Origin: Ctena decussata
Lineage: Eukaryota > Mollusca > Bivalvia > Lucinida > Lucinidae
Direction of reading: 5' to 3'
NCBI GenBank assembly: GCA_963989385.1
Contig: OZ022498.1
Coordinates: 4,967,501-5,031,500, forward strand
DNA length: 64,000 bases
The notes under the pieces were generated by a model that ran no database searches, was not told the origin of the DNA, and saw only the letters and a list, made by a program, of their open reading frames with translations. Below are positions 7,301 to 61,931 of the stretch, one piece after another. Both the position numbers and the translations under genes were made by a program. The number at the start of each line of letters is the position of its first letter. Position 1 is the first letter of the stretch.

Positions 7301-8916
7301 TTAGCAATCCAAGATGGCCGCCATCTGCCATTACTAAAAATAGTACACAACATGAAACTGGCAATATCTCAGTAACCCCTGAATGGATTTTGATGAAATT
7401 TGTGGCAAAATGATTCTTGCATTGAGGTGTTTCAAAAGTAAATATATAAAGACCAGGCAAGTTGGCCTCTGTTACTAAAAGTAGCAAAATGTGAAAATGA
7501 GAAATTCTCAGTGGAATTGGACCAATTTTGTATCAGAATGGTCCTGTTGCACAATAGCCAGGTGAGCGATATCAGGCCCATTTGGGCCTCTTGTTTTTAA
7601 TTTTCGGCCTTAGGCCTTCATCAGGAACGATAAAACAATTATTCTAGCTGAGTGGCATTCATCTTTTAAGAAATGAGTAATGTTGATCAACATTACTCAC
7701 TTCCTAAAAGATGAATGCCACTTAGCTAGAATAATTGTTTTATCACTCCTGAAGAAGGCCTAAGGCCGAAAATTTGAAAAAAGATTGTTTTTAATTCATT
7801 GACATCTGAGGTTAGTTTCTACAGAAAATGACCTCTAGGGACCAAGGAAGGATTTCTAGTGAGGCAGGGTTAACAAGCAATAAGGCTCAAGCCATTGAAG
7901 TTCTGCTGTAATTTTGTTAAGTCTGTTTGATTTGTAAGCAATAAAAAGGGGCCATGTGGCCAAGTGGTTAGAGATGCTCAGCTATAGTGCAGAAGGCCAC
8001 AGATTTGAATCCCTCTGGGCTAGCAACAACTGAAAACAGCGACTGAAAAACTCTGTTAACCCAACAGTAGATAAGGTACAGTTTAAGGTAGCAAAAACTT
8101 CAATGTCATGATTAGTTAAGGAAAAAGGTAAAATGCTCACTTGTTATCTCTTTCCTTAGCATGTTTAATAAATTCAATAACACATGAATACTCATGTAAA
8201 AATTGTGTAATAAAGGAGTATGAATGAATGATTCTGTTTATCATATAATACTGAAGTTGATTTTATTTGCGGTTTTTGCATGAAGGCATCAAGATTTTAC
8301 CAAGAGTGAATATGATGCCATGTACATGATAACACCATAATACACAACATATCTGGAAAGCCCACTTGAAAGCTGTCAAATGCAACATCATTTGGTAATA
8401 CAACTATTTCTATGTCTTTGTGATTCCACTTTAGCCCACAAAAACATAAAATAATTGTTTTATTAACCAAACAAAGGAAAATTGCGTCTTCATTATGTTA
8501 GGAAGCTTTAGCTATATCTGATGATATGTCGTGTGTGACCAGGCAATAGTCAGAAATATTAACAGCTGCTTTTGCTGTACATCTAAACTTGTGACATCAT
8601 TTACTGGGTAATAGTCAAAAATAAATATTGACTTGTCACATGCGATGAACTTGAATTCTACAGTAGACAGTCAAATTTAGGTAATTACTCTGCATATAGT
8701 ATGATGGCTAATAACAGTATTTATTACTTGATAATTCCAGGTGCAGACAGTGTCTCAGGGAACGACATATCAGTACAGGGGGAGAGCAGTATCCACGAGA
8801 TTGAAACTGACATCAGCCATGTGGGAAACCCGGACGACTGGTTGGCACTCAGAGTCCAGGGAGGGAGGTCCTGGAAGCTGTCATCTTGTTTTACCCCCGA
8901 GGCTTGTGAGGGATAA
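1217..8916 (+). CDS. CCDC142: CCDC142-like protein, C-terminal part (three exons, 5' end outside window)
   Basis: Join 1217-1394, 5249-5448, 8741-8916. The reading frame stays open through both introns (GTAAAA...TGCAG, phase 2; GTAAGT...TCCAG, phase 1) and ends at TAA 8914-8916, giving about 183 residues. Exon one reads LPKDYNVYVEHVLETVLEPV and then a helical stretch ending AWIAFIMKEKIKF. Exon two continues SYVGAHQLGLDVAFMKSWL and TILDLGILKALNGAVQLL. The last exon is acidic and ends with DDWLALRVQGGRSWKL before a short tail. From memory of the family, this order (EAWLDHI..IRFS, QGALQL, DWL, then an L.GAL segment and a late WLALR motif) matches the C-terminal domain of animal CCDC142, a poorly characterised intracellular protein. 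No alignment was run. Upstream exons lie left of the window. The alternative is another helical protein with a similar C-terminus. Confidence 0.72.
1541..4040 (+). repeat. Interspersed repeat (TATACGCCCATTTTG family), split by an AGCTCACC repeat
   Basis: It starts TTTTTATACGCCCATTTTG with a (CCGT)n-like stretch (CCGTCCATCCGTCCGTC), then degenerate sub-repeats (CATAACT...GGTTGCTCCCCCTT) at 1620-1930 and 3480-3620. It ends near GTATTATGCGCCGCTTGCG. It lies in intron 1 of the CCDC142-like gene. An inverted relative is at 58975-59345. Confidence 0.6.
1933..3475 (+). repeat. Long AGCTCACC repeat, copy 1
   Basis: Begins TTTTTAGCTCACCTGAGCAC and ends CAGGTGAGCGATCCAGGG...GGCCCTCTTG. Inside are a CCGTCGTCCGTC tract (1980-2030), four about 145-bp units with ATGGCCGCCAGAGC (2050-2625), and about six 120-bp units with GAGGGCACAGTTATGA (2630-3420). 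No coding potential. Confidence 0.8.
5249..5448 (+). CDS. CCDC142: CCDC142-like exon (second from last)
   Basis: Acceptor TATTTTGCAG ends at 5248; donor GGACA|GTAAGT follows 5448. It carries an SYVGAHQLGLDVAFMKSWL segment and an LNGAVQLLKRQNGKR basic stretch that ends in a Ser/Arg-rich run. The frame is preserved with both neighbouring exons. Confidence 0.72.
5590..7595 (+). repeat. Long AGCTCACC repeat, copy 2 (intron 2 of CCDC142-like gene)
   Basis: TTTTTTTAGCTCACCTGGCC start, CAGGTGAGCGATATCAGGCC end and CCTCTTG terminus. The interior repeats CCAAGATGGCCGCCATCTG and GTTACTAAAAATAG in degenerate units of about 145-310 bp. The short open frames seen here follow the repeat units and are not genes. 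Confidence 0.8.
7601..7772. mobile_element. 172-bp near-perfect palindromic MITE
   Basis: TTTTCGGCCTTAGGCCTTC at left and GAAGGCCTAAGGCCGAAAA at right; the arms pair through CAATTATTCTAGCT and CATTCATCTTTT to a centre at GTTGATCAAC. It abuts the end of the long repeat at 7595. Confidence 0.82.
7947..8020 (+). mobile_element. Degenerate tRNA-like SINE head
   Basis: GGCCAAGTGGTTAGAG resembles box A and GATTTGAATCCC resembles box B 32 bp later. The acceptor stem is poor, so this is a decayed tRNA-derived SINE, not a tRNA gene. The 3' limit is unclear (possibly near 8120). Confidence 0.45.
8741..8916 (+). CDS. CCDC142: CCDC142-like last coding exon
   Basis: Acceptor ATAATTCCAG ends at 8740 and the stop TAA is 8914-8916. 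It encodes an acidic Ser-rich linker, then NPDDWLALRVQGGRSWKL and a short tail. No clear AATAAA signal lies close downstream, so the 3' end of the transcript is undefined. Confidence 0.68.
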
Positions 8917-25961: not shown

Positions 25962-26013
25962 ATGAATTTTATAGGAGTATTAAGTTTTCTGCTTGGAATA
26001 AGTGCCGTATTAG
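25962..26013 (+). CDS. Signal-peptide exon of the mucin-antistasin-WAP gene
   Basis: ATG is preceded by purine-rich AAAGAGAAAGA. It encodes MNFIGVLSFLLGISAVL plus the first base of a Gly codon, followed by donor G|GTGAGT. The hydrophobic core and the phase 1 junction right after the signal peptide are typical of animal secreted proteins. Joining to the acceptor at 31830 recreates GGT and reads ...AVLG-QSLNGT. A downstream 5' UTR intron cannot be excluded because a GTAAGT lies at 25873. Confidence 0.72.
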
Positions 26014-29000
26014 GTGAGTTTACTGGACTCCAATAACCCAATTTAAAGATTTACTCCCTTGATAATAATAACAAAAATGATTTGATGAAATATTTCATGC
26101 AATACCTCCGACATGATTTAACTATACATTTGAAATAGAGTTTAGACAGTAATATTTGCTAAAAGTGACTTTCAACAAAAAATAAGAAATTTTAATCGAT
26201 CGTGGACCGCGCTCGAAATCGCATTACTGGACAAAAATAATTTATTCATATGTCACAATCACGTGCACGAATAAGAAAAATACCTGTACATGATCACATG
26301 ACACACGTGGTCAGAATCGATACTCTTACTCTTACAGGCCGTGAGGTACAGAGCCCGGGAGGGGACATAGCATAGTTAATTTGCATTTTAATTTGAAGAT
26401 TAATTTTCATTCCACATTTATCGAAAAAAAAAAAAAACATGCATTTTCTCAAAACTTGCACGCTTATTTAATTAATACGGTTAATTATGAGACTATTACA
26501 TATTGTCTAACGAAATTTTATTAAAATATTGTTTCTGTAAACATGAAATAAACGAGGGAGACACTCTTTAAAGCAAGCTCTATAAGAACTATAATCATAT
26601 TGCTGCTCTAGTGATAATACTGATAATGCATATGATTAATATATTTTTCCAAACTACTCCTAACCTCAGGTGCAGGACTAAGAACCCATGCGAAGCCTTC
26701 CTAGCCTCTCTTTTACTTATCTTTTTTTATCTTAAGGTTTCCCTACAGTTTCATCATTGCAAATGACCATGGATTGCCAAAACTATTTGCTTTTCTTGTA
26801 AAATGTTTGAAAAGGACCTGATATTGTCGGCCCATAGAAAACTCACTATGCGAAATTTCTGTTTTGATAATTAACCTAGCAGGCACACTACGTTGAATCA
26901 ACATTGAATCAACGTCATGACGTTGAATAAACGTTTATTCAATGTTGACTCAAAGTTGTGTGACCAGTGGCTTAAATTTCCAAACAGCAAGCAGAAAAAA
27001 GCATTGAAGTTAGTTCAGGCATAAAACATTTGGCCTCCTGAACATATCCGTACACCAAGCCAATTGTGACGAATTTGACATTTGAGGCTTTCCAAATATA
27101 TCCGTCCGGCCTCCAGCACATTCTATGTTTTGCAATCAGATAAGTTTTTGATATAGATGCCATGAAATTATTCATGTGCTGGATTTGGGCCTCTGTATTT
27201 ATTTTTAAGTTTTTGTTACCTAACTTGCAGTGTTGTAAAGTTGTTTTTTTTTTTTCAAGCTATCTCAAGCCGAAAGTGTCTATAATTCCGCTACCTGATA
27301 ACATAAGATGTAGGTATTCGTTTTCTTACTTAGGACATTAGGAATCATTTGGTACACGATTCAGTTTGATCCTTTTGTTTTCTTTGCGCTCGAGTCCTTG
27401 CACAGCACACATCAGGTTACATTACCAGTGCCCCCGCAATCATTTGCATATCAACTAAGCCTGTAATCCAGTGCTCTGCTTGAAGGCCCTATTGCTCTAT
27501 CAGCATGAAAATTTTTATCATAAGGCATCGCTGCAAGCTTCTCACTATAGTTTCGTCATTTTAAATGATCGTGATTAGCCAGCTTTAAACAAATAATACG
27601 TCCTTGAGTTTCACACAAAAAGTGTTTGAAAACTTATTTGGGTCATTTTAGTTGGCAACTAAAATGACATACTTTCGATTTCAATAAGTTGAATAAAATG
27701 GAAAAAAACAATGTAAAGGCGTGGCGCCCAAGTCACTATCCCGCTTATGTTCATATAGCATTGCAAGACGGAAAACCAGGGGCCTGGTTCACAACGAATC
27801 GTACGATTGAAATTCGTCGTAAGATGATCGTACGAGAATCTTACGACCAAAAATCGCTTTCATGAAAAAAATCTCGGTTTCACTATTGTCCTCGTAGAAC
27901 TCAATTTACGATCAAATCTACGATACCTAAAGGGCAGTCGTAAATTTCACTTTTTCTCCTCTTTCATCTCACAACATACTCATACTCAACTTTTGAATAG
28001 ATTACATTTATCTACTGTCTTTCTGAAAAGCATATACCAAGTTTTGAGCAAACCAGCCAATTAACAAAATTCCAAATTTATGATAAATCACCGAAGGGTG
28101 ATTTTGAGTGAAGTTTTTCCTGTACGATTATCGTACGATTGTCGTGCGATTCTTGCGGGATAATTTACCTGCAATGTATTAGAGACTATTCTCAAAATCA
28201 TTACGGCAGCATTTGTTCTTATAGAGAGAAATTATCTTACAAGAAAATGGGAGGTTTTAGGACTGTTTGAACCCCTAATTAGGTGATCTCTGAGACTGCA
28301 TGTTTGTGTTCAACGGTATGGCACGCCAAATGCACAATAAATCTTTAAACTAGGTTTAAGAAATTTTACCCTAAGTTGAGCTTCAAACCTTGGTTTCAGT
28401 TCAGTCCTAGGTTTCAAATCTGATTTCAATACCCGGATTTGTAAAAACGATTATAGAAAATTTCAATTTTCAAAAATTAGTTTTGAAGTTAAAACAAAGG
28501 ATTTAAAACTTAACACCTAAAATTGAGAATGCGAAATTTGGCTTGCTATACTATACAAGCGAATTATTGCGCTGACCACAAGGTTCTGCAGTGCAAGTCT
28601 GAAAGAGCTGATACAATCACAGACAGCATTTGGCAAAATAAAAAGACCCGAGTTTAATTCCTCGGAACTTCTTTCTCAAAACTGTATTTCGAAAATCGAG
28701 GAAGGGCATGGCAAGCCAATGCACAATAAATTTCAAAACCCTGAGTTTCAGCCTTGTTTTTAGAGGTTCAGTCCTAGGTTTTGGATCTCCAATCCCCACT
28801 TTTGTAAAATGAATTTATATAGGAATTTTGTTTTCATATCTTAGAAGTAAAGGATGTCACTATGTAGTGACACCCTTTACTACTTATCTTGGTTTTGAAG
28901 ATCTGCAACTAAGGATAAAAAACTTTAAACCTTGGACTGAAAACTTCCCAGGTGCGATCCTTCGTGTCTTTGGTTAGGAGTCGTCCATGTTTACTTAGAA

Positions 29001-32000
29001 GCCTCCGGTAGCTCAGTGGTTTAAGCGCTGGCCTGCTGATCAAGCGGTCCTGAGGTCGTTTCCGGAGGCGGAAATCGTTTCAATCGTAAACAGGGTTCCA
29101 TTGCACATAACCTTTCATTATCACCCTTCCACCGTCCTGAAACGACTGAAATGCTGCTGAAACGGACGTAAAATCGCAAGGCATCCATCCATCCTTCTTC
29201 CTTACTTCAGTGAGAAGGGCTTTAACCTCATTGGAGGTCCTGTTGACCCTTTTCTTTGACATGATTGCGTTGTATTACAAATCGCTACTTTTTGTGTTTA
29301 TAAAACCCAATACACATCTGTCAAAGCTAATACACATCACGTCTGCGATCCATCGTATAACTAAAATCCTACGAGAATCGTACTATCTGTCGTACGATGT
29401 TTTTATGAAACGATCGTGCGAGAATCGTGCGATTCTCGTACGACCAAACGTACGATTATCGCACGATTCATCGTACGGTAAATTTTTGTGAAACAGGCCC
29501 CAGACCAGGAAACTGTATTTTGTGGAGTAAATTGTTATTCTTGAAAAACTTCTTTTCTCTCCTTTTTGCCAGTTATATGACTCGATATATGGACGTCAAC
29601 CCACATTTTATTACCAAACGTGAAGGTTGAACCGCTTTTTACAATGATTTGAGTTTAGACATATTTACCATTGATAGGAATATGGATACTTTAAAAGTTG
29701 TTGTTACTGTTGCTTTCTGTTAAAGGACTGCCTCTTTCAAGGGCGTAACTTCCTATACGCAAATACGCAGGTGCGTAATGAAATTTTGTCAAACTGACAA
29801 AATTTCATTACGCGTCTGTATATTTGACGATGCTGAAATTTTTAAATTGGACAAGTGCAAACAGACGCGACAACATGAAATATCTTTGGGGCTAAACTCT
29901 TATTCTTGCACTCAAGGGGTAGAAAACATAAGTGTGTGTAACATGTACATGTAAATACCCCTAGCTATGCCCCTGTCTTTTCTCGCAGTTTTCTTTAAAA
30001 TTATTGAAGCAACACAGGCATTATTCTGAAAATACTCAGAAGAAACGAATTAAGGTAAAGTCTGGTAAATACGGACAGCCGGTAAACTCGGACAATGGGT
30101 AAATTCGGACAGTGGCATCATTTCCTTTATATGTCAGTTGTTTGGAATTAAAACAAAAATCCTGATGAGACGGCTCATCCTCTGGATTTTCACTGTTTGC
30201 AATGGTATGTCCGAATTTACCTGCTGTCCGAAGTTACCCGCTGTCCGAAGTTAACCGAATTGACCCGATTGATAATATGGCCGCATTCAGATGATAAGCA
30301 ATGGAAGCAACGTAATTTTAGTAAATTTGAACCGAGCTTTTCATACCAGATCCGTAATATATGTCATTTTGATGACCTATTTTAGACATTTAAACTTTAA
30401 TCTCGTTCTGCTAAAAATATAGTGTTCAGGAAAGAAAGAGGTCCTTCGTTGTCTCGCTTTTGTTTATATCATTGCCAAACAGCAGCCTAGATACTAAATC
30501 GATATTTTTGTATATATATGTACAAATCTATCGTTTCTATCATTTTGCAGGAGAGAGAGAGAGAGTACTTTTTTCCCAGTGGTAAAAGCGTATACATCGC
30601 CTGTACATTGTATTTTACCATTCATTCAAGTTATATGAGACTACACGAATCATTCCAACATATTTTTATACGACTATCAAATTAAAGTTGGTCAATCACG
30701 GTCATTTACAATGAAGAAACTAGAGACGCATGGATGATGGCAATTGTACGTGATTTTAACAGTATTTCAGTCATATAAGGGCGATGGGAGTGTGAAAGGC
30801 TGTGTGCAAGGAACCCCCGTTTAGGGTTGAAAAGATTGCCGCCACAAGCTGAAATCTAACCCGGACCACCAGCTTAGCAGGCCAGTGATTAGGGTCAAGT
30901 CTGGTAACTTCGGACAGCGGGTAAATTCGGACATACCATTGCAAACAGTGAAAATCCAGATGAGACGGCTCATAATGAGCCGTCTCATCAGGATTTTCAC
31001 TGTTCGCACAGTTAATTTTGTTTTAATTCCAAACAACTGACACAAAAAGGAAATAATGTCACTGTCCGAAATTACACGCTGTCCAAATTTACCCGACTTT
31101 ACCCTACAAGCTGAAATCTAACCCGAACCCGGGCACCAGCTTAGCAGGCCAGTGATTAGGGTCAAGTCGGTTAACTTCGGACAGCGGGTAAATTCGGACA
31201 TACCATTGCAAAATTTGAAAATCCAGAGTTCACTGTTTGCACAGTTACCAAACAACTGACACAAAAAGGAAATAAGGTCCCTGTCCGAATTTACACGCTG
31301 TCCGAATTTACCCGACTTTACACTAACCCACTGAGCTACTGGGACTTCTTAAAATTAGAGCTAACCTGGCAACGATACCTCATGATAAAATTTTACGTGA
31401 ATTTATGGCACTGAGACAGCAATGTGGTCTTTTAAAACACCCCCGCCTTTCCACAAACATGCGCTTCTATCATGTTTTGGGCCCATCTACTGTCAGAAAA
31501 TGAACATCAAAAAGAACCGACGGTTTATAAGAAAAAGAGATAAATGATAACAGGTTACCAAATGAAAGCAGAAGAAATCAATAATTTCAACCGTGATACT
31601 GAGCCAAGTTCTTTGAATTACCTCACTTATGCATGAGTTATTGCCCATGATTTGATTTCAAATCCACCAGTTCAGCCATCCACTTGGGCAGGGGATATAA
31701 AAGTCCATTGTTGGTGATATTGCTTTTTTTTCGCTGCGGCCAGTCCCACCTCGAACCATGATTATTTTAGTTTCCCGAGTTTATTTGCCTGTTTTACTAA
31801 AAGTTCATGAATTTTTATCTTGTTTCATAGGTCAAAGTCTAAATGGAACCGTTTCGGAATCTGAAGCATCATCAAGAAACGTAAAACTGTCATCCTCTGC
31901 TATAGCGGTTTATATAAATGCCCCAAACACTTCCCAAACTTCTACAGACGGAAATGTCAAAAGTTTAGACCAAGAATTTAGAGAGGCGGTGGGTGTCATT

Positions 32001-34538
32001 AAGGATAAAATAGCAACAAACAAAGGCAGTGACGGTGTTTTAGACAGTGGACCAATTCTTGTTGCCGAACGTAAATCTGCAGCGACTGCATCAAATCAAC
32101 AAAATACAGCAACTGCAGCAGATGTAAGTAAAACAAGTCAGCCGTCCAAATCAGACAACAACAAAATACAAGCTACCAGAGACATTATAAAATACAGGTC
32201 TGGGGATACACTTAACAATGCTGGTCTGGCTACTAACGAAACATCCGCAGATAACACAAGTTCTAATGACTCTGTAACTGATGCCGCTTTAGTGAAGAAA
32301 CCTGGGACTGATATCACCGAAACTGTAAGCGCAGATCAGTCTAAACCTGCATCAGGGTTAACGCTGTCAACTCAGACGAGAACAGAAAACACGAGTAATA
32401 CAACGCGAAACGAAACAGTCGATTCTGCTAACAAGCAAGGAAGACCGGCAGATAATCTATCAAACGGCAATATCTCAACTATTGAAAACCAGGATAGAAA
32501 CAACACGACCATTACAGCGGCTGATACAAATATAGCCAATACTCTTACAGTAGCTTCAGCTGAGATCACAAGCCCTTCTTCCTTAACTAGCGGGTCGACC
32601 AGTTCAAATCTAGCTCCGACAATGTCCGCTGTCTCAGCTAATTCCAGTACAGAAAATGTCAATGCTGAGTCAGCGGGGCTTTCTACGGAAAGCCCAACAG
32701 ACTCAACAGTGACATTTTCGGAGCCAGTCACTCTCTCAACATCAGGATCTACAAACAATTTGTCAGGGTCCGTCGTGTCATCAGGATCTACCAACAATTT
32801 GTCAGGGTCGGTCGTGTCATCAAGATCTACAAGCAATTTGTCAGAGTCGGTCGTGTCATCAGGATCTACAAACAGTACCTCAGAATCGACCATGCTTTCA
32901 ACAGCATTGTCTGTAATTAGCTCCTCAGAATCAGCCAAACTTTCAACAATGGCGTCAGTAGATAGAACCTCGGGATCGGTCGTGCTTTCAGCAGACGCCC
33001 CGGTTAACAGTACCTCAGAGTCGGTGACGACTGTGCGACAATCATGTACTTCACCGACCTGTGACAATGCCTGTCGACTGGGGTATATGGTCGACCAAAA
33101 TGGATGTCTTACATGCGAGTGCAAAGGTATTTTTTTTTATTTTACTATTTAATAAGTCGTTGACTTTTTGTACTTGCTACGTTTTTTTCTTCCTTGTACC
33201 ATATGTATGCCAAACACTAAAAGTGATAACCAAGCAAAAGTGCCTCATGCAGTGTTTTGCCAAATTTTAAGTTCCAGAAGTCAATACATGTAGTTCGAAA
33301 TAAAAACATAATTAGTGTTTGAGTGTTCCGTTACACTCAAACAACACTGACTTGACGTGTAAACGTTCTCGAAACCGCCTACTTACTATCCTTATAAGGT
33401 TTTGACTATTAATTTAGGTAGCTGTAATTACGTGGCTCAGACTTTGTCCTAGCCAACAACTAACATTATTGATGGCCTGGGATAAGATTATTCGTACTAA
33501 GTTTGATGCTGCAGTTGGTTGTTTCTTCAGTATCCAACAGTTTAATGTCAGTTAAATTGTCAGCATGTTCTCTAGGGTAAAGTCGGGTAACTTCGGACAG
33601 CGGGTAAATTCGGACAGTGACATTGTTTCCTTTATGTGCCAATTGTTTTGAATTAAAACAAATAACTGGGCAAATAGTGAAAATCCTGATGAGACGGCTC
33701 ATCTTGAGCCGTCTCATCTGGATTTTACTGTTTGCAATGGTATGTCCGAATTTGCCCGCTGTCCGAAGTTACCCGACTCTGCCCTATTGCAAATGGAGTC
33801 ACAGTGTGAGAAGCCGGCCGGTCATAAATGACCGCAACCAATGTGACAAAGATAATTTTTCAACACTTTTTATGATAAAATCGAGTATCTTTATTTGAAT
33901 TTTATCTGCATTTTTTCTAAATGATTGTTGTCTTATGTAAATTTCAGTGCATCAATGTCAGTCAGGTAGACTGCTAACTGGAACAAGTGCCTTGATGTGT
34001 GACCTAGCAACAAGCTTATGTCCCCTAGGTCAGGTTTGCGAGGGTACGGGGTCAGGGTCAGCTGGTGTATGTTGTGAATCGGTCTTTACATTTTCAGGTA
34101 GGTGTAAGATATATCAGAGCAAGACTTGGAGCTCTAAATAATGCATCAGCGGGAGCAGTACCTTATAACAACGTCGTCTCAACGTTGATTCAACGTCACG
34201 ACGTGACGTTGACACAACAGCGAAACAACGTTATTTCAAAGTTTTGTTCCTGCTGTATCGGATTTGGACATAATCATTTATGTTCATTTGCCACTGAAAC
34301 ATTATGTAGAACCGTCTTGGTGCAATTCCGAGGCGATTCTAATGAAGGCCATACTGCAATAGCATACAATGTCGCTCTTAAGGACCATATTACATCTTTA
34401 TTGATATTAAGCAGTCGGGGTAAAGGTGTGAAAAAATAAAAAAATTATCAATTAATGAACATTTAGATTGATTTTCAGGACTAAAAAAGGGGATAGTCTG
34501 AATGAAAGAAAAGAGAGTAAAATACTCACTCACTAGAG

Positions 34539-34614
<76 letters not shown>

Positions 34615-37600
34615 AAAGCAATTGCTAAACAAGCAACACACGTCCCACTTTGAGTAGTGCATATCTCGTTGAAGCACGGAAAACAATTGGACGGATGGGT
34701 CTCTTACGCCGTAAAAACAATATAACAATACGCGGTTCATCCTAATGATGTCAAAATAGATTTTAAAAGGGTTAGTATCATGCTTTGATCGACATGGTTC
34801 AGTTCAGAAGTAGGATTTTCCTCACAAAGTAAAGTGATGCATCTGATGTTGTCTACGTTACTTAACTGAGTCCCGTGCTTAGAAAAGTTACCTTATGCGA
34901 ACAACATAGATGCAAATCAGAGTCTTCCTAGTTCACGTACCTGGGAAATCTGTGAAGTAAAAAAAAACTCACACTCTGAGCAGTCTTCAAAACTGCGGCG
35001 GCTGATATCTGGAGCTAAGCTGTAAATGCCCAAGTGCATATTTCCCAGTGTAGTTGGTTAATGGCGGTTCTCTGGTTTGTTTTACGGATCTTTGTGGTCA
35101 ATCTAAAATTGTATATACGTTTCACACTGATTCTATCCTATTACATTCATTGATTGCCTCTGGGAGTCATCTAGATATATAAAATTATATATAATAAAAA
35201 ATATTTTAACTCTTTATTGAAACAGAAAGTAGCTCATATATCCGATTATTTTTTTCAATCTAATAAACCAGGAAATCTGCGCATAGTGTCACGGTAAGTG
35301 CTGTCAGGGTGGTGGTAGGTGATAACAGTGTCGCTGAACGTCGGCAGTGGCGTCAGCCTCATACAAAACACAACATAGTTACACCGAGGTAATGTGTGCA
35401 AATATGGTTTCCTACCCATTCTAACGTTTTTATACCATTTAATGTTTTAGTGTATGAAATCTAAGCACACCATCTTGTAGCTGTCACTAGGCAGGATTTT
35501 GCACATGAGTTTCAGAGCGATTGCTTTGCTCAGTTTTAAGAAAAGCCCGTGACGTAAGGTTACATTCTTACAGAAAAATGCTGGGGTAATGTACTTTGAA
35601 GTCGAGTAAAGAATACAAAATGGAGCAAATTTGCACAAAGAATATAAGATATTGAGGAACACATATTTCTTCGTGTGATCTTGTTAGTTTTATGATGCCG
35701 GGCCATTTAAGTTAATACATGTATCACGAATTTGCCGCTGTGACGTAGGTTACATAAAATTTGCGACATTAGTTCCCAGTCTCATTTCGTAGCAAAAACT
35801 ACCCTTTAGATATTGTTTAAGCGGGGAAATATGTAACAAATCACCTGAATTTAATAATGGAACTCGATTTTCAGCAGTGATTTATCTTTTTTAGCCGTGC
35901 GGCGTTCATATCTATGCAACGGCAATATTGCGACATTTAAAAACGTCGCATTTTAAACCAGGGTATCATTATTCGAACCAGTGTTAAAAATGTCTAACAA
36001 AACGCATGCATGTCTTGGTACTTTTATCTACTTCTTTAGACAGAGGGCTACTTGTCAGAGGGTAAACAGGACCGTTATTTTGTAATTTAAAGAAAGGCAA
36101 TACGAAGGACAAAATTAATAGCTAATGGCCCAGCTTAACTGAGAACGTCTCAGATGCGTGCGTGGCGTGTGCGTGCGTGTATGTGTCTGTGTTTGTTTAT
36201 TCAGCTATGATTAGAACTGGAAAGCCCAATGTACACCAAATTCTCTAACAGCCAATCTATCGGCGCATGTATGATTTTTTATTTGTTGTTGTTGGGGAGT
36301 GGGGTGGGGCAGGGGGTGGGGGGAAGAGATAGTGGAGGGCGAAGGAAATTACTATGGGAGAAAGTGGCTCTACAAGGTCCGGATAATCAGGAATCTGGTC
36401 GTCCTTCCTATAGCCATTTTTTTTCCGAGGGGAGGGGGATGGGGCAGGGAAGGGGAGGAAAATAGGGAAACTACTCAGACAGTTTCTTCTATGGTCAATT
36501 AAGGTAAATCCGGACAGAAGGAAAACCCGGACACTCATGCTTTTCCACTAATAAAGAGCTTAATCTACATGTTTTCAGTGATTTCTTTTTCTTTCCCTTT
36601 CGAATTAATTGCTTTTGTTGCTAGATTGTATGAACACTTATTATTTGACTGCAGCCTCCGAATCAAGTCCTTTTCAAGCGTTTTTAAGTTTTCTGGGCAA
36701 CGAATTCAAATTTAGCTGCAAGCGATGGTGAACTAGGTCCCTGCATAATTCGCGGCAAACGTAAATGTAACTTTTAAAACAAACAAATTCGATGAATTTA
36801 TGTCCCCCGCCTCGGAAACAAGGTATCCACTGTATATACACTTAGTGTTTGAGCTGAAAAAAAAACGGCTAAGTTAAAAATGTGAAAAAAGTAATAAAAA
36901 TTTATCTCAAGACTGTACAAAAGTCACATGCATATCTTCAAACCATGCCTAAACTACCTGTACAGTTTCAAAAGTATCGGAATAAAACTGTAGGAGGAGT
37001 TGCGCACACAAGATATGTACGCAAAAGGTCTTCTGATGCTGGAAAATGACTAAGTTCGCAAAGCAAAAAATAAGTAGTAAAACATTATTTGACGATAACC
37101 CCTAAGGCACATGCACATCTACAGACCATGAGAAAGAAGCATGCGAAGTTCAGAACTATTCATGAAAAACTGTAGGAGGAGTTGCGCACAAAAGGTATGT
37201 ACTTTAAAGGTCTTCTGATGCTGGAAAATGACTAAGTTCGCAAAGTAAAAAAAGTGGTAAAAAATTATTTCAGAATGATGCATGAAAAACTGTAGGAGAA
37301 ATTGCGCGCGCAAGGTACTCACTCTCTAGAGGGGGGAGGGGGGGGGGGCGTAACTACGGAGTTACGGAACCACGGAAAGCCGAATACCATGTCCCCTCGC
37401 TTTTCTTCGATTTAATATAAGTTTCATGATCTATGTATATTTATTGTCTAAAATAGATATTGAACAACATTTTATCAAAAATCATGTCCGGGTTTACCTT
37501 CCGCCAAAATGCTGTGTGAGGTAAACCCGGACATCAACTATTTTTGGGGTTCATATGATTAAAAAGTAATTAAATATAAAATGTTTGTCATGGTTTGAAA

Positions 37601-38223
37601 TTAGAGATACAATATTTGTGCATTTTACTTTGCAGTATAAATATGACAGATAATGAGTTTTATATGGTATAGTTTGTATAGTGCCCCGTAGCAGACTGAA
37701 CGAACTTATCACCCACCCACGCAAATGTATGTCTTAGACTATATTAGCCCCATCACGAGATTTAACAATTACTAAATTTGGTATATCTGCGTGCGGATCT
37801 ATATAGGCGATATTTTAAAAAAATAATCAGCTGTCTGGAGTCCGGGTTTGCCTTACTCAACGGTTTGGCTCTTTAATAAAGTGCCTCTGGCCCTACGGAA
37901 TACCGAAACAGTTTTTCATATAGCATTGGCAATACGGATCGTGGCGACCCTGCTTAAACTGTCCGGGTTTACCTTAATTGACCCTGCGCCTTAGAAATAT
38001 TAAAACGTCAGTTTTTTTAAATATAATTTCAGAGAACTGCCCACGAGCCCGACCAGGTTCCCGACTTTTGTGCCTAGTGCAGCAACGTTATCAGTGTAGT
38101 TCAGATGCTGAATGTGGTTCCGGGCGTAGTTGCTGTCCCAGCACGTGCGGTAACTCATGCAGACGGTTGTCAAGGAGACGCAGTCGCCTGCTGAATATTA
38201 TTCCAACTCTAAACAGATTGTAG
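25962..38223 (+). CDS. Secreted mucin-like protein with antistasin, lustrin/EB-like and WAP domains (four exons)
   Basis: Join 25962-26013, 31831-33126, 33948-34097, 38033-38223: 1689 nt, 562 residues. All three introns are GT-AG and phase 1, and the frame is open throughout. Residues 1-18 form a signal peptide; cleavage near Gly18/Gln19 is likely. Residues 19-420 are Ser/Thr/Asn/Ala-rich with many N-x-S/T sequons, and include a 13-residue repeat, as in heavily glycosylated mucin-like proteins. Residues 423-448 fit an antistasin domain (C-x4-C-x3-C-x10-C-x2-C-x-C with GY..D.NGC). Residues 453-492 form a lustrin/EB-like module (C-x13-C-x6-C-x5-C-x10-CC). Residues 502-542 form a WAP four-disulfide core (C-x10-C-x7-C-x5-C-x5-CC-x3-C-x3-C). 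The tail is strongly basic (RRLSRRRSR). Inferred role: extracellular matrix, shell or mucus protein and/or protease inhibitor. An extra exon hidden in the long introns cannot be excluded. Confidence 0.8.
26891..26958. repeat. GTTGAATCAACGT repeat, copy 1
   Basis: Clustered CGTTGAATCAAC and AACGTCATGACGTTG motifs form an imperfect palindrome. Related clusters are at 34168-34240, 39243-39300, 48597-48716 and 50258-50302. This copy lies in intron 1 of the mucin-like gene. Confidence 0.7.
27779..29501. mobile_element. 1.7-kb element with GGGGCCTG-TTCACAA inverted ends
   Basis: Left end GGGGCCTGGTTCACAACGAA, right end inverse of TTTTTGTGAAACAGGCCCC. Sub-terminal regions are dense in TCGTACGA-type palindromes (27800-27850, 28125-28160, 29365-29478). 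A minus-strand open frame at 29080-29262 starts MSKKRVNRTSNEVKALLTEV, slightly like a Myb/SANT-type DNA-binding N-terminus. That link is weak. Probably non-autonomous. Confidence 0.68.
29001..29069 (+). mobile_element. tRNA-like pseudo-gene or SINE head
   Basis: A perfect 7-bp acceptor stem GCCTCCG/CGGAGGC encloses a box A (GGTAGCTCAGTGGTTTAAGC) and a decayed box B (GAGGTCGTTTCC). The T arm cannot form normally, so it is not a working tRNA. It lies inside the GGGGCCTG element. Confidence 0.55.
29769..29815. repeat. Palindrome with core shared with 8942-9018
   Basis: GCGTAATGAAATTTTGTCA pairs with TGACAAAATTTCATTACGC. The core is the inverse complement of the core at 8960-8995. Confidence 0.75.
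30051..30268. mobile_element. CGGACAG foldback MITE, copy b
   Basis: AAGGTAAAGTCTGGTAAATA start and CTGTCCGAAGTTAACCGAAT near the end. The inner hairpin is shortened (GAGACGGCTCATCCTCTGG). Confidence 0.78.
30570..30740 (-). repeat. Interspersed repeat family 6, reversed fragment
   Basis: CCCAGTGGTAAAAGCG, TGTACATTGTATTTTACC and CACGGTCATTTACAATGAAG are inverse matches to the family 6 copy at 24385-24820. Confidence 0.5.
30891..31105. mobile_element. CGGACAG foldback MITE, copy c
   Basis: AGGGTCAAGTCTGGTAACTT start, CGACTTTACCCT end. The centre pairs GAGACGGCTCATAA with TGAGCCGTCTCATC. Confidence 0.82.
31158..31325. mobile_element. CGGACAG foldback MITE, copy d (centre deleted)
   Basis: Same ends as copy c, but the GACGGCTCA hairpin is gone (AATCCAGAGTTCACTG remains). 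Confidence 0.75.
31831..33126 (+). CDS. Mucin-like and antistasin exon
   Basis: Acceptor TGTTTCATAG ends at 31830; donor GCAAAG|GTATTT follows 33126. This 1296-nt exon is open throughout and encodes residues 18-449. Most is low-complexity Ser/Thr/Asn/Ala/Glu sequence with sequons such as N-G-T, N-T-S, N-E-T and N-S-T. Its last 27 residues are the six-Cys antistasin motif, with Cys at 423, 428, 432, 443, 446 and 448. The frame is also open upstream to an ATG at 31758, but a splice from the signal exon explains the junction better. Confidence 0.85.
32745..32900 (+). repeat. 39-bp in-frame tandem repeat inside the mucin-like exon
   Basis: Four units of exactly 39 bp start at 32745, 32784, 32823 and 32862. 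Each encodes a 13-residue unit of the type GSTNNLSGSVVSS; the fourth is diverged. More decayed copies follow to about 33020. The repeat keeps the frame and the Ser/Thr bias, so its copy number could vary without breaking the protein. Confidence 0.9.
33574..33785. mobile_element. CGGACAG foldback MITE, copy e (intron 2 of the mucin-like gene)
   Basis: AGGGTAAAGTCGGGTAACTT start and AGTTACCCGACTCTGCCCT end; centre GAGACGGCTCATCTTGAGCC. It makes up a quarter of the 821-bp intron. Confidence 0.82.
33948..34097 (+). CDS. Lustrin/EB-like six-cysteine exon
   Basis: Acceptor TAAATTTCAG ends at 33947; donor TTTTCAG|GTAGGT follows 34097. The exon is 150 nt and symmetric (phase 1 in and out), so it can be gained or lost without a frameshift. 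It encodes residues 450-499 with the pattern C-x13-C-x6-C-P-L-G-x2-C-x8-G-V-C-C, which resembles lustrin cysteine-rich and EB modules. The same CC-ended module occurs six times in the gene at 49076-51152. Confidence 0.8.
34168..34240. repeat. GTTGATTCAACGT repeat, copy 2
   Basis: AACGTTGATTCAACGTCACG and GACGTGACGTTGAC clusters about 70 bp after exon 3 of the mucin-like gene. Confidence 0.65.
34541..34612 (+). repeat. (CT)n(CA)n compound microsatellite
   Basis: About 50 bp of CT with one interruption, followed by about 20 bp of CA, in intron 3. Confidence 0.95.
34620..36490. other. Intron 3 sequence without recognised features
   Basis: Moderately AT-rich with a G-rich stretch at 36290-36330 and 36425-36465. 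No exon-like frame flanked by splice sites and cysteine codons was found here. Confidence 0.5.
36493..37983. mobile_element. 1.5-kb DNA element with GGTCAATTAAGGTAAA inverted ends
   Basis: Left GGTCAATTAAGGTAAATCCG and right CGGGTTTACCTTAATTGACC are inverse. Inside, two imperfect units (36960-37160, 37160-37320) repeat GTAGGAGGAGTTGCGCACA and GGTCTTCTGATGCTGGAAAA. GTCCGGGTTTACCTTCCGCC and GAGGTAAACCCGGACAT form an internal hairpin near 37487-37533. There is no transposase. It ends about 50 bp before the WAP exon. Confidence 0.75.
38033..38223 (+). CDS. WAP-domain terminal exon of the mucin-antistasin-WAP gene
   Basis: Acceptor ATATAATTTCAG ends at 38032; stop TAG is 38221-38223. Eight cysteines at 502, 513, 521, 527, 533, 534, 538 and 542 have WAP spacing, with the usual Cys-Pro at the start and a D..C element (SSDAEC). 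The residue after the second Cys, the P1 position in SLPI and elafin, is Leu514. A basic 20-residue tail follows. The poly(A) signals lie 40-52 bp after the stop. Confidence 0.85.
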
Positions 38224-38262: not shown

Positions 38263-38280
38263 AATAAAGGCACAAATAAA
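38263..38280 (+). promoter_or_regulatory. Poly(A) signals of the mucin-antistasin-WAP gene
   Basis: Two AATAAA hexamers, at 38263-38268 and 38275-38280, lie about 40 and 52 bp after the stop codon. This gives a short 3' UTR. Confidence 0.7.
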
Positions 38281-44254: not shown

Positions 44255-47200
44255 TACACTACTCAAAATATTCAAAGGAGCAATTGATATTTTCCCATAC
44301 ACATTACTACAATATATACCCAGTTACAACGGCCCATAAATTCTACTGCCAGTGGCCGAGAATTTCCCATGCTTTTGCAGCATTTTGAAGAAGGATCGAA
44401 GTTTAAGACAATAAAGATTTCAATAGAACTGATGCCCTGATCATTTTCATGGAACAAATTTGGCAATTTTCGAATTATCTGAAATTGAGACATTTTTCTA
44501 GAAGTCTATAAAATCTTATAGAGTTGAGTTAAAACTGATCCTTTCAAACGGGTTACCTTGAAACATTCAGTTTCACAGAAAAATGGTCGTTTAAATTGTG
44601 GTAAATTTTCATGATTTTTAACTGTTTGAAAAATTACATTTAAAAAAAATCCATTTTTAGCTCACCTGAGCCTTTAGGCTCATAGGTGAGCTTATAGTAT
44701 AGCCAGGCATCCGTCGTCCGTCCGTCGTCCGTCGTCTGTCGTCCGTCGTCCGTCCGTCGGCAACATTTTCAAACATCTTCTCCTCTGAAACCACTGGGCC
44801 GATTGAAGCCATATTTCATATGAAGCCTACCTAGGTCGGGGGAACGAAAGTTTGTTCCCGGTATCTGGGTCACATGACCAAGATGGCCGCCACGCCCATA
44901 TATGGTGAAAAACCCTACAAAAATCTTCTTCTCCAGAACCAAAAGGCCTATGACCTTGAAACTTGGTATGTAGCATCGGGCATGCGGGCCCATCATGGTT
45001 TGCACAAATCATGATCGTGCGGTGACCTTGACCTAATTTACGGTATGGTCAACTTTGCTACGTTACGCTTTTATATGGGAAAACGCTTAAACAGTGGATT
45101 TCTCAGAAACTATTTAATTCTAAGGTACAATACTTGGTATACATGGTCGACTAAATGACCAGATGAAGATATTATGTCACGAAAGGTCAAGGTCATTCCG
45201 TCGGACCATCCGTCGTCAAGATTTTCAAACATCTTCTCCTCTGAAATCACTGGGCCGATTGAAGCCAAAGTTCATATGCAGCATCCATGGGTTGGGGAAA
45301 CGAAAGTTTGTTCGCGGTATCTGGGTCACATGACCAAGATGGCCGCCACGCCCATATATGGTAAAAACCCTTCAAAAATCTTCTTCTACAGAACCAAAAG
45401 GCCTATGACCTTGAAACTTGGTATGTAGCATCGGGCATGCCGGCCCATCATAGTTTATACAAATCATGACCTTGCATTGATCTTGACATAGTTTAAGGTA
45501 TGGTCAAGTTTGGTATGTTAGGCTTTTATATGGGAAAAAGGCTTAAACAGTGGATTTCTCAGAAACTATTTAATTCTTAGGTTTAGTATTTGGTATACAT
45601 GGTCGACTAAATGACCAGATGAAGATATTATGTCATGAAAGGTCAAGGTCATTCTGTCTGACCATCCGTCGTCAAGATTTTCAAACATCTTCTCCTCTGA
45701 AACCACTGGGCCGATTGAAGCCAAATTTCATATGCAGCCTCCATGGGTTGGGGAAACGAAAGTTTGTTCGCAATATCTGGGTCACATGACCAAGATGGCC
45801 GCCACCCCCATATATGGTAAAATCCTTCAAAAATCTTCTTCTACAGAACCAAAAGGCCTATGACCTTGAAACTTGGTATGTAGCATCGGGCATGTGGGCC
45901 CAACATAGTTTATACAAATGATGACCTTGCGTTGATCTTGACCTAATTTACGGCATGGTCAACTTTGGTACGTTAGGCTTTTATATGGGCAAATGCTTGG
46001 ATTTCTCAGAATCTATTTTAGTCTAAGGTACAATATGTTGTATACATGGTCGACTAAATGACCAGATGAAGATATCATGTCACTAAAGGTCAAGGTCATT
46101 CCGTCGGACCATCCGTCATCAAGATTTTCAAGCATCTTCTCCCCTGAAACTACCGGGGTGATTGAAGCAAAATTTCATATGGAGTCTCAGTGGGATGGGG
46201 GAACGAAAGTTTATACCCGGGGTCTTGGTCACATGACCAAGATGGCCGCCATGCCCATATATGGTGAAAAACTTTCAAAAGTCTTCTTCTCCAGAACCAA
46301 AAGGCCTATGACCTTGAAACTTGGTATGTAGCTTTGAGCATGCGAGCCCATCTACTTTGTACAAATGATGACCTTGCGTTGACCTTTTTAACGACATGGT
46401 CAAAGTTTGTATGTTAGGCTTTTATATGGGAAAACGCTTATATAGTGGATTTCTCAGAAACTATCTAAGTCTAAGGTACACTATGTGGTATATATGGTCA
46501 ACTAAATGACCAGATGAAGATATTATGTCACTGAAGGTCAAGGTCAGTTTGTCGGTTTGTCCGTCATCAAGATTTTCAAACATCTTCTCCTCTGAAACTA
46601 CTGGGGAGATTGAAGCCAAATTTTATATGGTGTCTCAGTGGAATAGGGGAACTAAAGTTTATACCCGGGGTTTGGGTCACATGACCAAGATGGCCGCCAT
46701 GCTCATATATGGTAAAAACTCTTCGAAAATCTTCTTCTCCAGAACCAAAAGGCCTATGATCTTGAAACTTGGTATGTAGCATCAAGCATGCGGGCCCATT
46801 ATAGTTCATACAAATAATGACCTTGCATTGGCCTTGACCTAATTTACGACATGGTCAACTTTGGTATGTTAGGCTTTTATATGGGAAAACGCTTATACAG
46901 TGGATTTCTCAGAAACTATTTAAGTCTAAGGTACAATACGTGGTGTATATATGGTCAACAAAATGACCAGATGAAGCTATTATGTCACTGAAGGTCAAGG
47001 TCAGTTTGTCGGTCTGTCCGTCATCAAGATTTTCAAAACATCTTCTCCTCTGAAACCACTGGTCTGATTGAAGCAAAATTTCATATGGAGTCTAAGTGTG
47101 ATCGGGGAATAAAAGTTTGTTCTCGGGATCTTGACCAAGATGGCAGCCATGCCCGTATACGGTAAAAACCCTTCAAAATCTTCTTCTCCAGAACCAAAAG

Positions 47201-49075: not shown

Positions 49076-49124
49076 ATGTGGCTCACAGTCACTTGTATTA
49101 TTTTGGCATGTTATATTTCGTCAG
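49076..49124 (+). CDS. Signal-peptide exon of the six-module WAP gene
   Basis: ATG in the context GCAAAGATG encodes MWLTVTCIILACYISS plus one base, then donor CAG|GTATGT. The phase 1 junction creates Gly17, followed by Gln18 in the mature part, exactly as in the gene at 25962 (...G-Q-S). Confidence 0.82.
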
Positions 49125-51152
49125 GTATGTTGAATTTGAATACATATTATTTGTATGTTTTTGTTTTAACTTTCAAATCCTGATATGATACTTATGAAAT
49201 TGTATCGTAGTATATGCAAGTAATTTATAGTTAAAATTAAAATATCGTGTTAACCAACTGTTATATAGTTCATGGATTAATATTTTTTGAAAAGCATATT
49301 TGATTGCTTTAATTAAACCTATATTTTTCATTATTAATTGTCGAATTATTCTAGGGGACTGAGGAAGGGTATACCTACTGAAATAAGTATTATTAATTCA
49401 ATATTACGATAACGTTTAAAAAAAATACACCATGATCCAAAAGAAAAGAAAAAAGAAAGCAATAAGATGAATTAATAACTAAAGTAATTAATAAAAAAAT
49501 AAACAGACAGACAGTGAATAAAAGGAATGATTTGTTTGTTTTACAGGTCAGTCGATAAGGCCTCCAGTACCCTTTGATTGCCTTCGTGGACTCAAATCGT
49601 GCCAGTCTAACTCAGACTGCCCCAAGAGCTACCCCGTTTGCTTCGTAAACCGGTGTTGCCGCCGTCCAGTTTTCCCGCCATTATGTCCTTCGAACCGCCG
49701 AGGACCAAAGTGTGGTTTCTTACAACCGCCATGTAAGCCAGGATATACATGTAGAGGCGGGTACTGTTGCAGAAATCTGATTCCTACATGTCCTCGGGGC
49801 ATGATAACAGGCCCTCAGTGTGTCAAAGGCTACTGGTGTCCTAAAGGCTACAGCTGCATCAACGGAAGATGCTGTAAAAAGCGCATCTCTCCCAGCTGTC
49901 CGCCATTTCTCGCTGGCCCGCCGTGCAGCAAGGAACTTCCGTGCAAGAAAGGATACACATGTCGAAAAGGGACATGCTGTCGGGAGCTGTTCCCACCTAA
50001 AACATGTCCTAAAGGGATGTTGTACACCGGAAGTTGCTTTGGAACAAGAAAATGTAAATCAGTAGGATCAAAGTGTATAGATGGCGCTTGCTGTCGGCGA
50101 AAAAGTTCCACATGCCCAAAAGGGATGCCTTTCACAGGATATTACTGCCATGGAGGGAAGAAATGTAGATTCGGATCAACCTGCATAGATGGGTCTTGCT
50201 GCCGAAGGAGGATTATATTCCCGCCCATAGGTAAGTTATCCTCCGGGCAAATAACGCTGAATCAAAATTGAATCAACGTTGATTCAACGTCATTACGTTC
50301 AAACCATGGTATGACTATTTTACACCCCCTTTTTGAGTCGCTGCATACCCTTGTGAGCCCAGAATGGTTAATAAAATTCTTGTATTATTGAAAAAAAAAT
50401 AATGTACGCTGGTACGCTAGCAAAAGTGGATACGCTCCCCGGAGCCGTATCGAGATTTCCGTTAAGAGGTTCAAAAAATCATAGCGTTCACTGTTTTCAA
50501 ATTCTCACTGAAAATTCTGATATGCTAAAAATAATTTGATTCCCAAGGAGGCTCTTGGGAGCGAGCCCATAACTCGCACCTGTTGGCACAGAGTCTGTCT
50601 TCGTCTAGTGCTCGTAACATATTCCTCAGGACTGGCAAAAAATTGAAGAGGACACGGACAGACTGGCTGCCATGAGGCTCGACCTCATGGCAGCGAGTCT
50701 GTTCGTGTCCGAACCTCATGGCAGCGAGTCTGTTCGTGTCCTAGCCTCATGGCAGCGAGTCTGTTCGTGTCCGAGCCTCATGGCAGCGAGTCTGTTCGTG
50801 ACCCGACCAAGTTTGCCAGTTCGAAGAAGAGATTGCATGTGCTTGATAAAGCTAGGCTATCCAGATAACGGTCATAGCCAATAAGAAGCCGAACCCGGCG
50901 ACAAATCAAAACGACCGTCGTGTGGATAAGGAGACTGTCGTGTGGGTGAATAACCCCAGCCTAACTAATTGTATCTTTGTTACAGATCGCTGTCCACTCA
51001 CAAGACCAGACATAATCTGCCCAGCTGTTTTCCTGCCCCCACTCTGTGACAGTGACAATGACTGTAACACTGGCGAGAAATGTTGCAAGGTCGGATGCAA
51101 TCCTGCCGACTGTGTACCTGCAGTATCGTTCCCGCCAATACCGCGGCCCTAG
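49076..51152 (+). CDS. Secreted protein with six tandem six-Cys modules and a C-terminal WAP domain (three exons)
   Basis: Join 49076-49124, 49547-50230, 50986-51152: 900 nt, 299 residues. Introns are GTATGT...TACAG and GTAAGT...TACAG, both phase 1. Residues 1-17 form the signal peptide. Six modules, each ending in CC, span Cys 28-54, 63-91, 98-126, 134-161, 170-199 and 206-235, with the general pattern C-x6-10-C-x5-6-C-x5-6-C-x4-CC. Most contain CP or CxKGYxC. This is lustrin/EB-like. The WAP domain uses Cys 247, 256, 265, 271, 277, 278, 282 and 287, giving 44 cysteines in total after the signal peptide is excluded. The protein is rich in Lys/Arg and Pro. Inferred role: extracellular, disulfide-locked matrix, protease-inhibitor or defence protein. 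It lies 10.9 kb downstream of the related gene ending at 38223. Confidence 0.87.
49547..50230 (+). CDS. Six-module cysteine-rich exon
   Basis: Acceptor TTTTACAG ends at 49546; donor CCATAG|GTAAGT follows 50230. The 684-nt exon is open in one frame and encodes residues 17-244. All six modules share one exon, so the array grew by duplication inside the exon. The paralogous module in the upstream gene occupies its own 150-nt exon. Modules 5 and 6 (CPKGM...CIDG.CCRR) are the most alike, which suggests the most recent duplication. Confidence 0.88.
50258..50302. repeat. GTTGATTCAACGT repeat, copy 5
   Basis: CTGAATCAAAATTGAATCAA and CGTTGATTCAACGTCATTAC lie 28 bp after the donor at 50230, in intron 2 of the six-module WAP gene. 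Confidence 0.72.
50652..50805 (+). repeat. 31-bp tandem repeat with an inverted lead copy
   Basis: CCTCATGGCAGCGAGTCTG units start at 50683, 50714, 50745 and 50776, period exactly 31 bp. Just before them CAGACTGGCTGCCATGAGG (50660-50678) is an inverted copy. It lies in intron 2 of the six-module WAP gene. Confidence 0.9.
50986..51152 (+). CDS. WAP-domain terminal exon of the six-module WAP gene
   Basis: Acceptor CTTTGTTACAG ends at 50985; stop TAG is 51150-51152. It encodes residues 245-299 with WAP spacing C-x8-C-x8-C-x5-C-x5-CC-x3-C-x4-C and a SDNDC element. The residue after the second Cys is Pro257, an unfavourable P1 for most serine proteases. The tail is Pro-rich (FPPIPRP). Confidence 0.87.
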
Positions 51153-61316: not shown

Positions 61317-61931
61317 CAGTGACTTCCAATTTTTATCAAACATATTGAGACCCCAGAGGGATGGAGGGCCCTGTTAAAGAAGCATATTGACTCTTTTGTG
61401 CAAGCAGAATGGGCGCGAGAATCTAAGGCCTCCTTGCAGTGGTTGAATGTACAATCCCTAAAAGTAGGGCAACCACACCAGGTATGGAAATGCATCCCCC
61501 ATGATGTGAGGACTGTCAAAAGAGCCTACCCTAAACTCCGTCTACTTACCGGAACATACATTTTACAAGAGAATCGAACCAGATTCAACCAGTACACAGT
61601 CCGTGATTGTTGCCTGCTTTGTGGGGCTGGTGCTGAGACCCGTATCCACTTTATTGCAGGGTGCTCCAGGCTTGAGCCTATAAGAGTAAACTTTAAGGAG
61701 CAGTTGAGTACCATTTTAAGTCGTAAAAACCATATAAACATTATTAGTGAAGTCCTGATGGACCATGAAAAGCTAGTTGAACTGATTTTGGATTGTTCAT
61801 TCACTATCGTGAAAGGTTTGCTTCAGTTGGATGATGGTATGGTGCTGGATATTGAGAATCTTTCAAGAAACTTGTGTTATTCTCTACATCAGAAGCGCAG
61901 TGAGATCTTAGGCCTCAGACTAAGGAAGTAA
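61317..61931 (+). pseudogene. Non-LTR retrotransposon C-terminal fragment with CCHC-like finger
   Basis: An open frame of about 200 codons runs to TAA at 61929-61931. It includes GWRALLKKHIDSFVQAEWAR, then TRFNQYTVRDCCLLCGAGAE and HFIAGCSRLEPIR, i.e. C-x2-C-x7-H-x4-C. This is the zinc-finger tail commonly found after the reverse transcriptase in LINE ORF2 proteins. No RT domain precedes it, so it is probably a 5'-truncated insertion. Confidence 0.7.

Follow-up and report, generated by a model that had tools for sequence, protein, structure and literature searches.

Proteins that pair antistasin with WAP modules have already been described, from the mucus and the shell of limpets and from the adhesive of sea stars. 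In the pedal adhesive mucus of Patella vulgata, P-vulgata_12 is described as a secreted protein that pairs a WAP domain with an antistasin-like one; its table row gives a length of 219 residues, and the description there mentions neither a long stalk nor a lustrin module (PMC7333891). The sea-star footprint protein Sfp8 is likewise reported to carry WAP and antistasin domains, and Sfp3 and Sfp15 are said to have them too. Unlike the protein considered here, Sfp8 has several domain copies and two FAMeT domains, the account naming no lustrin module (PMC9382459). Two shell proteins of Lottia gigantea, Lotgi1|201804 and Lotgi1|239125, unite WAP and antistasin in one matrix protein, with 8 and 11 WAP domains in arrays and no mucin-like stalk in the description given (PMC3374290); one of the two has been reported again (PMC4094399). 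In addition, one Lottia matrix protein is described as similar to antistasin and to part of lustrin A (PMC3374290, PMC4094399), and six foot-specific WAP-like proteins are reported from mussel (PMC5549309). Lustrin A, from abalone nacre, is described as combining a glycine/serine-rich domain with Cys-rich repeats, and the predicted protein shares with it a Ser-rich region and Cys-rich modules. Lustrin A also has a C-terminal WAP-like domain and many lustrin repeats, and is not known to contain an antistasin module.

Here we analyse a window of 64,000 nucleotides from the bivalve Ctena decussata (C1:4967501-5031500; the genome totals 1.66 Gb and comprises 245 contigs), in which a first-pass annotation had proposed a secreted protein with a mucin-like region followed by antistasin, lustrin/EB and WAP modules, an order for which it knew of no described protein. 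A literature search, judged mostly by titles and the starts of abstracts, did not find the order stalk, antistasin, lustrin and WAP described, and a search on lustrin, WAP and antistasin together returned only the Lottia proteome. The exact domain order looks new for a predicted protein whose class is familiar and whose modules are known together; what is new here is the predicted stalk of about 400 residues and the lustrin-like module.

A predicted four-exon gene and its surroundings

The four exons in Table 1, joined in phase as the first-pass annotation had it, were recovered at the same coordinates, and the predicted joins give a protein of 562 residues with a TAG stop at 38221-38223 and AATAAA motifs downstream of it at 38263, 38275 and 38284. 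By inspection of the sequence, all three introns are GT-AG and all are of phase 1. Exon 2 (1296 bases) and exon 3 (150 bases) are both multiples of three, and an exon length divisible by three is a usual mark of shuffled modules. The open frame holding exon 2 runs for 483 codons, whereas 60 simulated 64-kb sequences (first-order Markov) contained none longer than 226 and 500 Markov sequences built from the exon-2 frame itself none longer than 200. Exon 2 shows a three-base periodicity of 0.083 bits; among 73 overlapping windows of intron sequence the highest value is 0.007. We consider it likely that the predicted gene model is real.

Table 1. Predicted features of the window, in window coordinates
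Feature	Position	Strand	Description
Exon 1	25962..26013	+	start codon and predicted signal peptide (MNFIGVLSFLLGISAVL|G); GT donor, phase 1
Exon 2	31831..33126	+	Cys-free Ser/Thr/Asn-rich stalk, then antistasin-type six-Cys module at 3' end
Tandem repeat in stalk	32740..32874	+	39-base (13-residue) unit, 3.5 copies, SGSTNNLSGSVVS-like
Antistasin-type module	33045..33122	+	residues 423-448, C-x4-C-x3-C-x10-C-x2-C-x-C, putative P1 Asp429
Exon 3	33948..34097	+	lustrin-like six-Cys module, residues 450-500; phase 1-1 splice sites
Exon 4	38033..38223	+	eight-Cys WAP four-disulfide core at 502-542, then Arg-rich tail and stop codon
Neighbouring gene, separate	49076..51152	+	candidate signal-peptide exon, then one exon of Cys-rich repeats that end in CC, then WAP in the last exon

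The predicted signal peptide, identified by hydrophobicity only, covers residues 1-18. Between 20000 and 31800, two candidate first exons resemble signal peptides and have the right phase, one at 25962 and one at 30165. Their hydrophobic cores are equal (2.72), the donor scores 8/9 at 25962 versus 7/9 at 30165, and the candidate at 30165 resembles, by eye, repeated frames among the open frames of the window. Repeated frames reading like ...SRFSNIFSSETTG...GHMTKMAAMPIYGKN... occupy 45159-46779, are present in several copies in the window and are probably an interspersed repeat.

A scan of both strands for Cys-rich internal-exon candidates retained eight clusters, three of which are the modules of the predicted gene and one the repeat exon of the neighbouring gene; the remaining four were judged by eye: one reads the stalk repeat in another frame, one runs through a CT repeat, one looks repetitive and one is antisense. 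Extra Cys-rich modules hidden in the introns of the predicted gene were rejected, as the scan yielded none on the plus strand. The neighbouring gene has a candidate signal exon at 49076-49124 and a WAP module that scores 24.7 bits with Pfam, and it also gives weak CC-domain matches below the cut-off. Elsewhere in the window, a 202-residue frame at 61323-61931 with a weak sub-cut-off match to zf-RVT (E 0.14) is probably a retroelement remnant, and a 94-residue open frame on the plus strand at 8632-8916 belongs to no convincing family (best E 0.15).

Stalk and disulfide modules

The predicted stalk spans residues 19-421 (403 residues) and contains no Cys. Over 397 of these residues (19-415) it consists of 21.4% Ser, 13.6% Thr, 9.6% Asn and 2.8% Pro. 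Ser and Thr together make up about 35%, but classical mucins are Pro/Thr/Ser-rich, and the low proline speaks against a classical mucin, so the first-pass label of mucin-like is a loose one. The tandem repeat within the stalk has 91% matches and 0% indels in Tandem Repeats Finder. All 18 N-glycosylation sequons of the protein fall within the stalk; shuffled stalks hold a mean of 12.9, and 4.8% of 2000 shuffles reach 18, which makes the excess only a slight one. The stalk has a net charge of -13, the antistasin module of -1, the lustrin-like part of -2 and the WAP module with its tail of +9.

The antistasin and WAP segments were expected by the first-pass annotation to score in a domain scan, and both do so on the full protein. 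For antistasin (PF02822) the match reaches 24.1 bits against a Pfam cut-off of 21.2 and covers profile positions 1-26 of 26, with 25.0 bits on exon 2 alone. A genome-wide antistasin profile search recovers the bases of this module at rank 9 among the 44 matches listed, 29 of which lie above the cut-off; in the controls, one of 14 control genomes gave a match, below the cut-off. The antistasin-type inhibitor domain of leeches is described as having ten Cys, paired 1-3, 2-4, 5-8, 6-9 and 7-10 (PMC6265900). In the predicted protein only the last six of these Cys are present, preceded by the Cys-free stalk. A search of solved structures with the antistasin piece (Gly at 450) placed guamerin at E 5, below unrelated chains (best E 0.036).

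For WAP, the full protein scores 23.0 bits against a Pfam cut-off of 20.8, and the eight-Cys pattern with its CC pair is present (Cys 502, 513, 521, 527, 533, 534, 538 and 542). The window's WAP exon is missing among the 29 genome matches to WAP at E <= 0.001, which makes it a weak member of its family. SLPI and elafin head the solved structures found with the WAP piece, yet weakly (E 3.2-3.9), and a single-sequence structure model of this exon on its own was of too low confidence to be informative (mean pLDDT 51). The 21 residues at the C-terminus hold seven Lys/Arg and no Asp/Glu.

The module of exon 3 is less clear. Lustrin_cystein (PF14625) matches exon 3 alone with 20.8 bits (E 4.9e-4, profile 1-45 of 46) and the 148-residue C-terminal end with 16.8 bits, against a cut-off of 27, and is absent from the match list for the whole 562-residue protein. 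Given a match that covers nearly the full profile yet stays below the cut-off, lustrin-like is a fair name. The EB profile (PF01683) was not listed up to E 10 for the exon-3 piece (ending in Gly, not Glu500), in a search whose filters drop most weak matches. Of the original lustrin/EB designation, the lustrin part thus keeps sub-cut-off matches on fragments and the EB part is unmatched.

Together, the three modules form a C-terminal end of 148 residues with 20 Cys (6+6+8). After shuffling with composition kept, this end had no Pfam family match in nine of nine cases. A conotoxin profile match to the end (14.8 bits versus 27, E 0.031) was taken as a chance match driven by Cys.

Relatives within the genome

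Several searches used the C-terminal end with Gly in place of Val450 and Glu500. With this query, a protein-database search returned 340 candidates, none at E <= 0.001, and a search of solved structures returned no related chain; a second protein-database search with the corrected sequence returned 31 candidates, none at E <= 10, and the protein collection used for both may contain few molluscs. The Gly-bearing query gave seven matches in the genome, three of which are the window's own exons and four of which are weak (E 0.038-5.4), indicating no close paralogue at that sensitivity. The best of the four, on C16, is by eye an ordinary WAP exon of a different gene. WAP exons also cluster elsewhere in the genome, at C2:28782263-28805307 and C16:9304195-9379197.

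A gene of related construction lies on the minus strand of C14, from about 10656521 to 10653130. Its signal-peptide exon is followed by two exons for antistasin and a last one for WAP, joined in phase 1 by our reading of the sequence. It shares with the window gene the signal-peptide exon, antistasin, the terminal WAP exon and the phase-1 joins, and it differs in having two antistasin exons; a stalk and a lustrin module are absent from the listing of its Cys-rich frames. Its WAP loop has 8 residues and a putative P1 Phe, as against 7 residues and Leu514 in the window gene. Also on C14, an antistasin exon at 10689972-10689814 and a WAP exon at 10677076-10676876 are of the same kind and possibly a tandem copy, and a 1181-codon frame between these exons looks by eye like a retroelement polyprotein. 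Although the exact domain order of the window gene was not found in the literature, the presence of antistasin with WAP in the C14 gene, as in the limpet and sea-star proteins, limits the novelty first claimed for it.

Matrix component or protease inhibitor

We favour, with a probability of about one half, the reading that the predicted protein is secreted and heavily glycosylated, belongs to mucus or extracellular matrix, and represents a stalked offshoot of the molluscan antistasin+WAP secretory proteins. The signal peptide would direct the protein out of the cell, and the 403-residue stalk, judging by its composition, may carry N- and O-glycans and hold water or bind gel. The 20-Cys end would fold into three small, protease-resistant disulfide cores. 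Given the charge of +9 on the WAP module with its Arg-rich tail and of -13 on the stalk, possible ligands of the WAP module and tail are acidic glycans, microbes and chitin-associated matrix.

A role in the shell is possible, though it is the less probable reading. Here the protein would, like lustrin A and perlwapin, sit in the mineralising matrix by virtue of its lustrin-like and WAP modules, and would affect CaCO3 growth or matrix cohesion, not proteases. The Lottia shell proteins with WAP and antistasin, the one that resembles antistasin and part of lustrin A, and the glycine/serine-rich domain of lustrin A all point in this direction. WAP is also described as part of the bivalve biomineralisation toolbox, in which perlwapin is an inhibitor of nacre crystals, and the neighbouring gene likewise ends in WAP. 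However, the lustrin-like module is single, unrepeated and below the Pfam cut-off, and the pairing of WAP with antistasin is also reported from unmineralised secretions (PMC7333891, PMC9382459).

An active serine-protease inhibitor of haemolymph or mucosa, which would stop proteases of the host or of bacteria through its WAP and antistasin loops and bind microbes through its cationic tail, is unlikely. The P1 residue is described as determining the specificity of such inhibitors, with Arg/Lys for trypsin and Tyr/Phe/Leu/Met for chymotrypsin, and both a putative WAP P1 of Leu and the seven Lys/Arg without Asp/Glu at the C-terminus would suit this role. The antistasin module argues against it. 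In poecistasin, P1 has been inferred to be Arg27, directly after the second Cys of the six-Cys unit (PMC6265900), and the residue at this position in the window's module is Asp429, which is of neither trypsin, chymotrypsin nor elastase type. Across nine distinct pattern-matched antistasin modules, sampled from the window and 31 genome loci with the antistasin loci being the best 10 of 44, the P1 residues are Asp (window), Arg, Leu, Ser, Ala, Ser, Thr, Asn and Tyr, so that Arg, found in one of the nine, is exceptional within the sample.

The WAP loop is also unusual. Between Cys 2 and Cys 3 it has 7 residues, versus 8 in three comparator WAP cores matching the same pattern (the eight best-scoring genome WAP loci, none of which fitted the pattern spacing, lie outside this comparison) and in elafin; loop length bears on inhibition and not on the fold. 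The residue directly after Cys 2 is Leu514, the putative P1. In the alignment to elafin, 7 residues precede elafin Cys 3 and the aligned part ends short of its Cys 2; the alignment is ungapped and sets Leu514 opposite elafin Met25, the P1' residue, so that the P1 assignment in the WAP module is tentative. With Asp at the antistasin P1 and a WAP loop that lacks one residue relative to the three comparators, protease inhibition by the predicted protein is doubtful, and to call the modules terminal inhibitors, as was first proposed, goes too far. If serine proteases are inhibited at all, the more likely source is the WAP loop, whose putative P1 Leu514 is of chymotrypsin/elastase type, rather than antistasin with its Asp429.

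It is tempting to speculate, at rather long odds, that the protein is a lineage-specific stalked 'glyco-inhibitor', in which phase-1 exon shuffling would have added a glycosylated stalk and a lustrin-like module to an antistasin+WAP protein and the head may have shifted from trypsin-like targets to an unusual acidic-P1 specificity (e.g. bacterial glutamyl/aspartyl endopeptidases) or to pure matrix cross-linking. Least probable of all is a misjoining of two transcription units, in which a transcript of exons 1-3 would run on into intron 3 and end there, the WAP exon being part of another transcript: read-through from exon 3 meets a stop about 14 codons past the splice site, AATAAA lies at 34435 and intron 3 spans 3.9 kb, but the exon 3 donor and exon 4 acceptor match in phase 1, WAP is the last exon after antistasin in the C14 gene too, and a signal exon belonging to the WAP exon within intron 3 is unsupported, with no signal-peptide-like first exon in phase at 34098-38030.

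Read as a stalked mucus or matrix protein, the predicted gene is a further example of exon shuffling in phase 1 in the secretory proteins of molluscs, in which the same small disulfide modules recur across mucus, adhesive and shell. Because both putative reactive sites look non-canonical, the gene, if expressed, would offer a direct test of whether such modules inhibit proteases or act as stable parts of a matrix.
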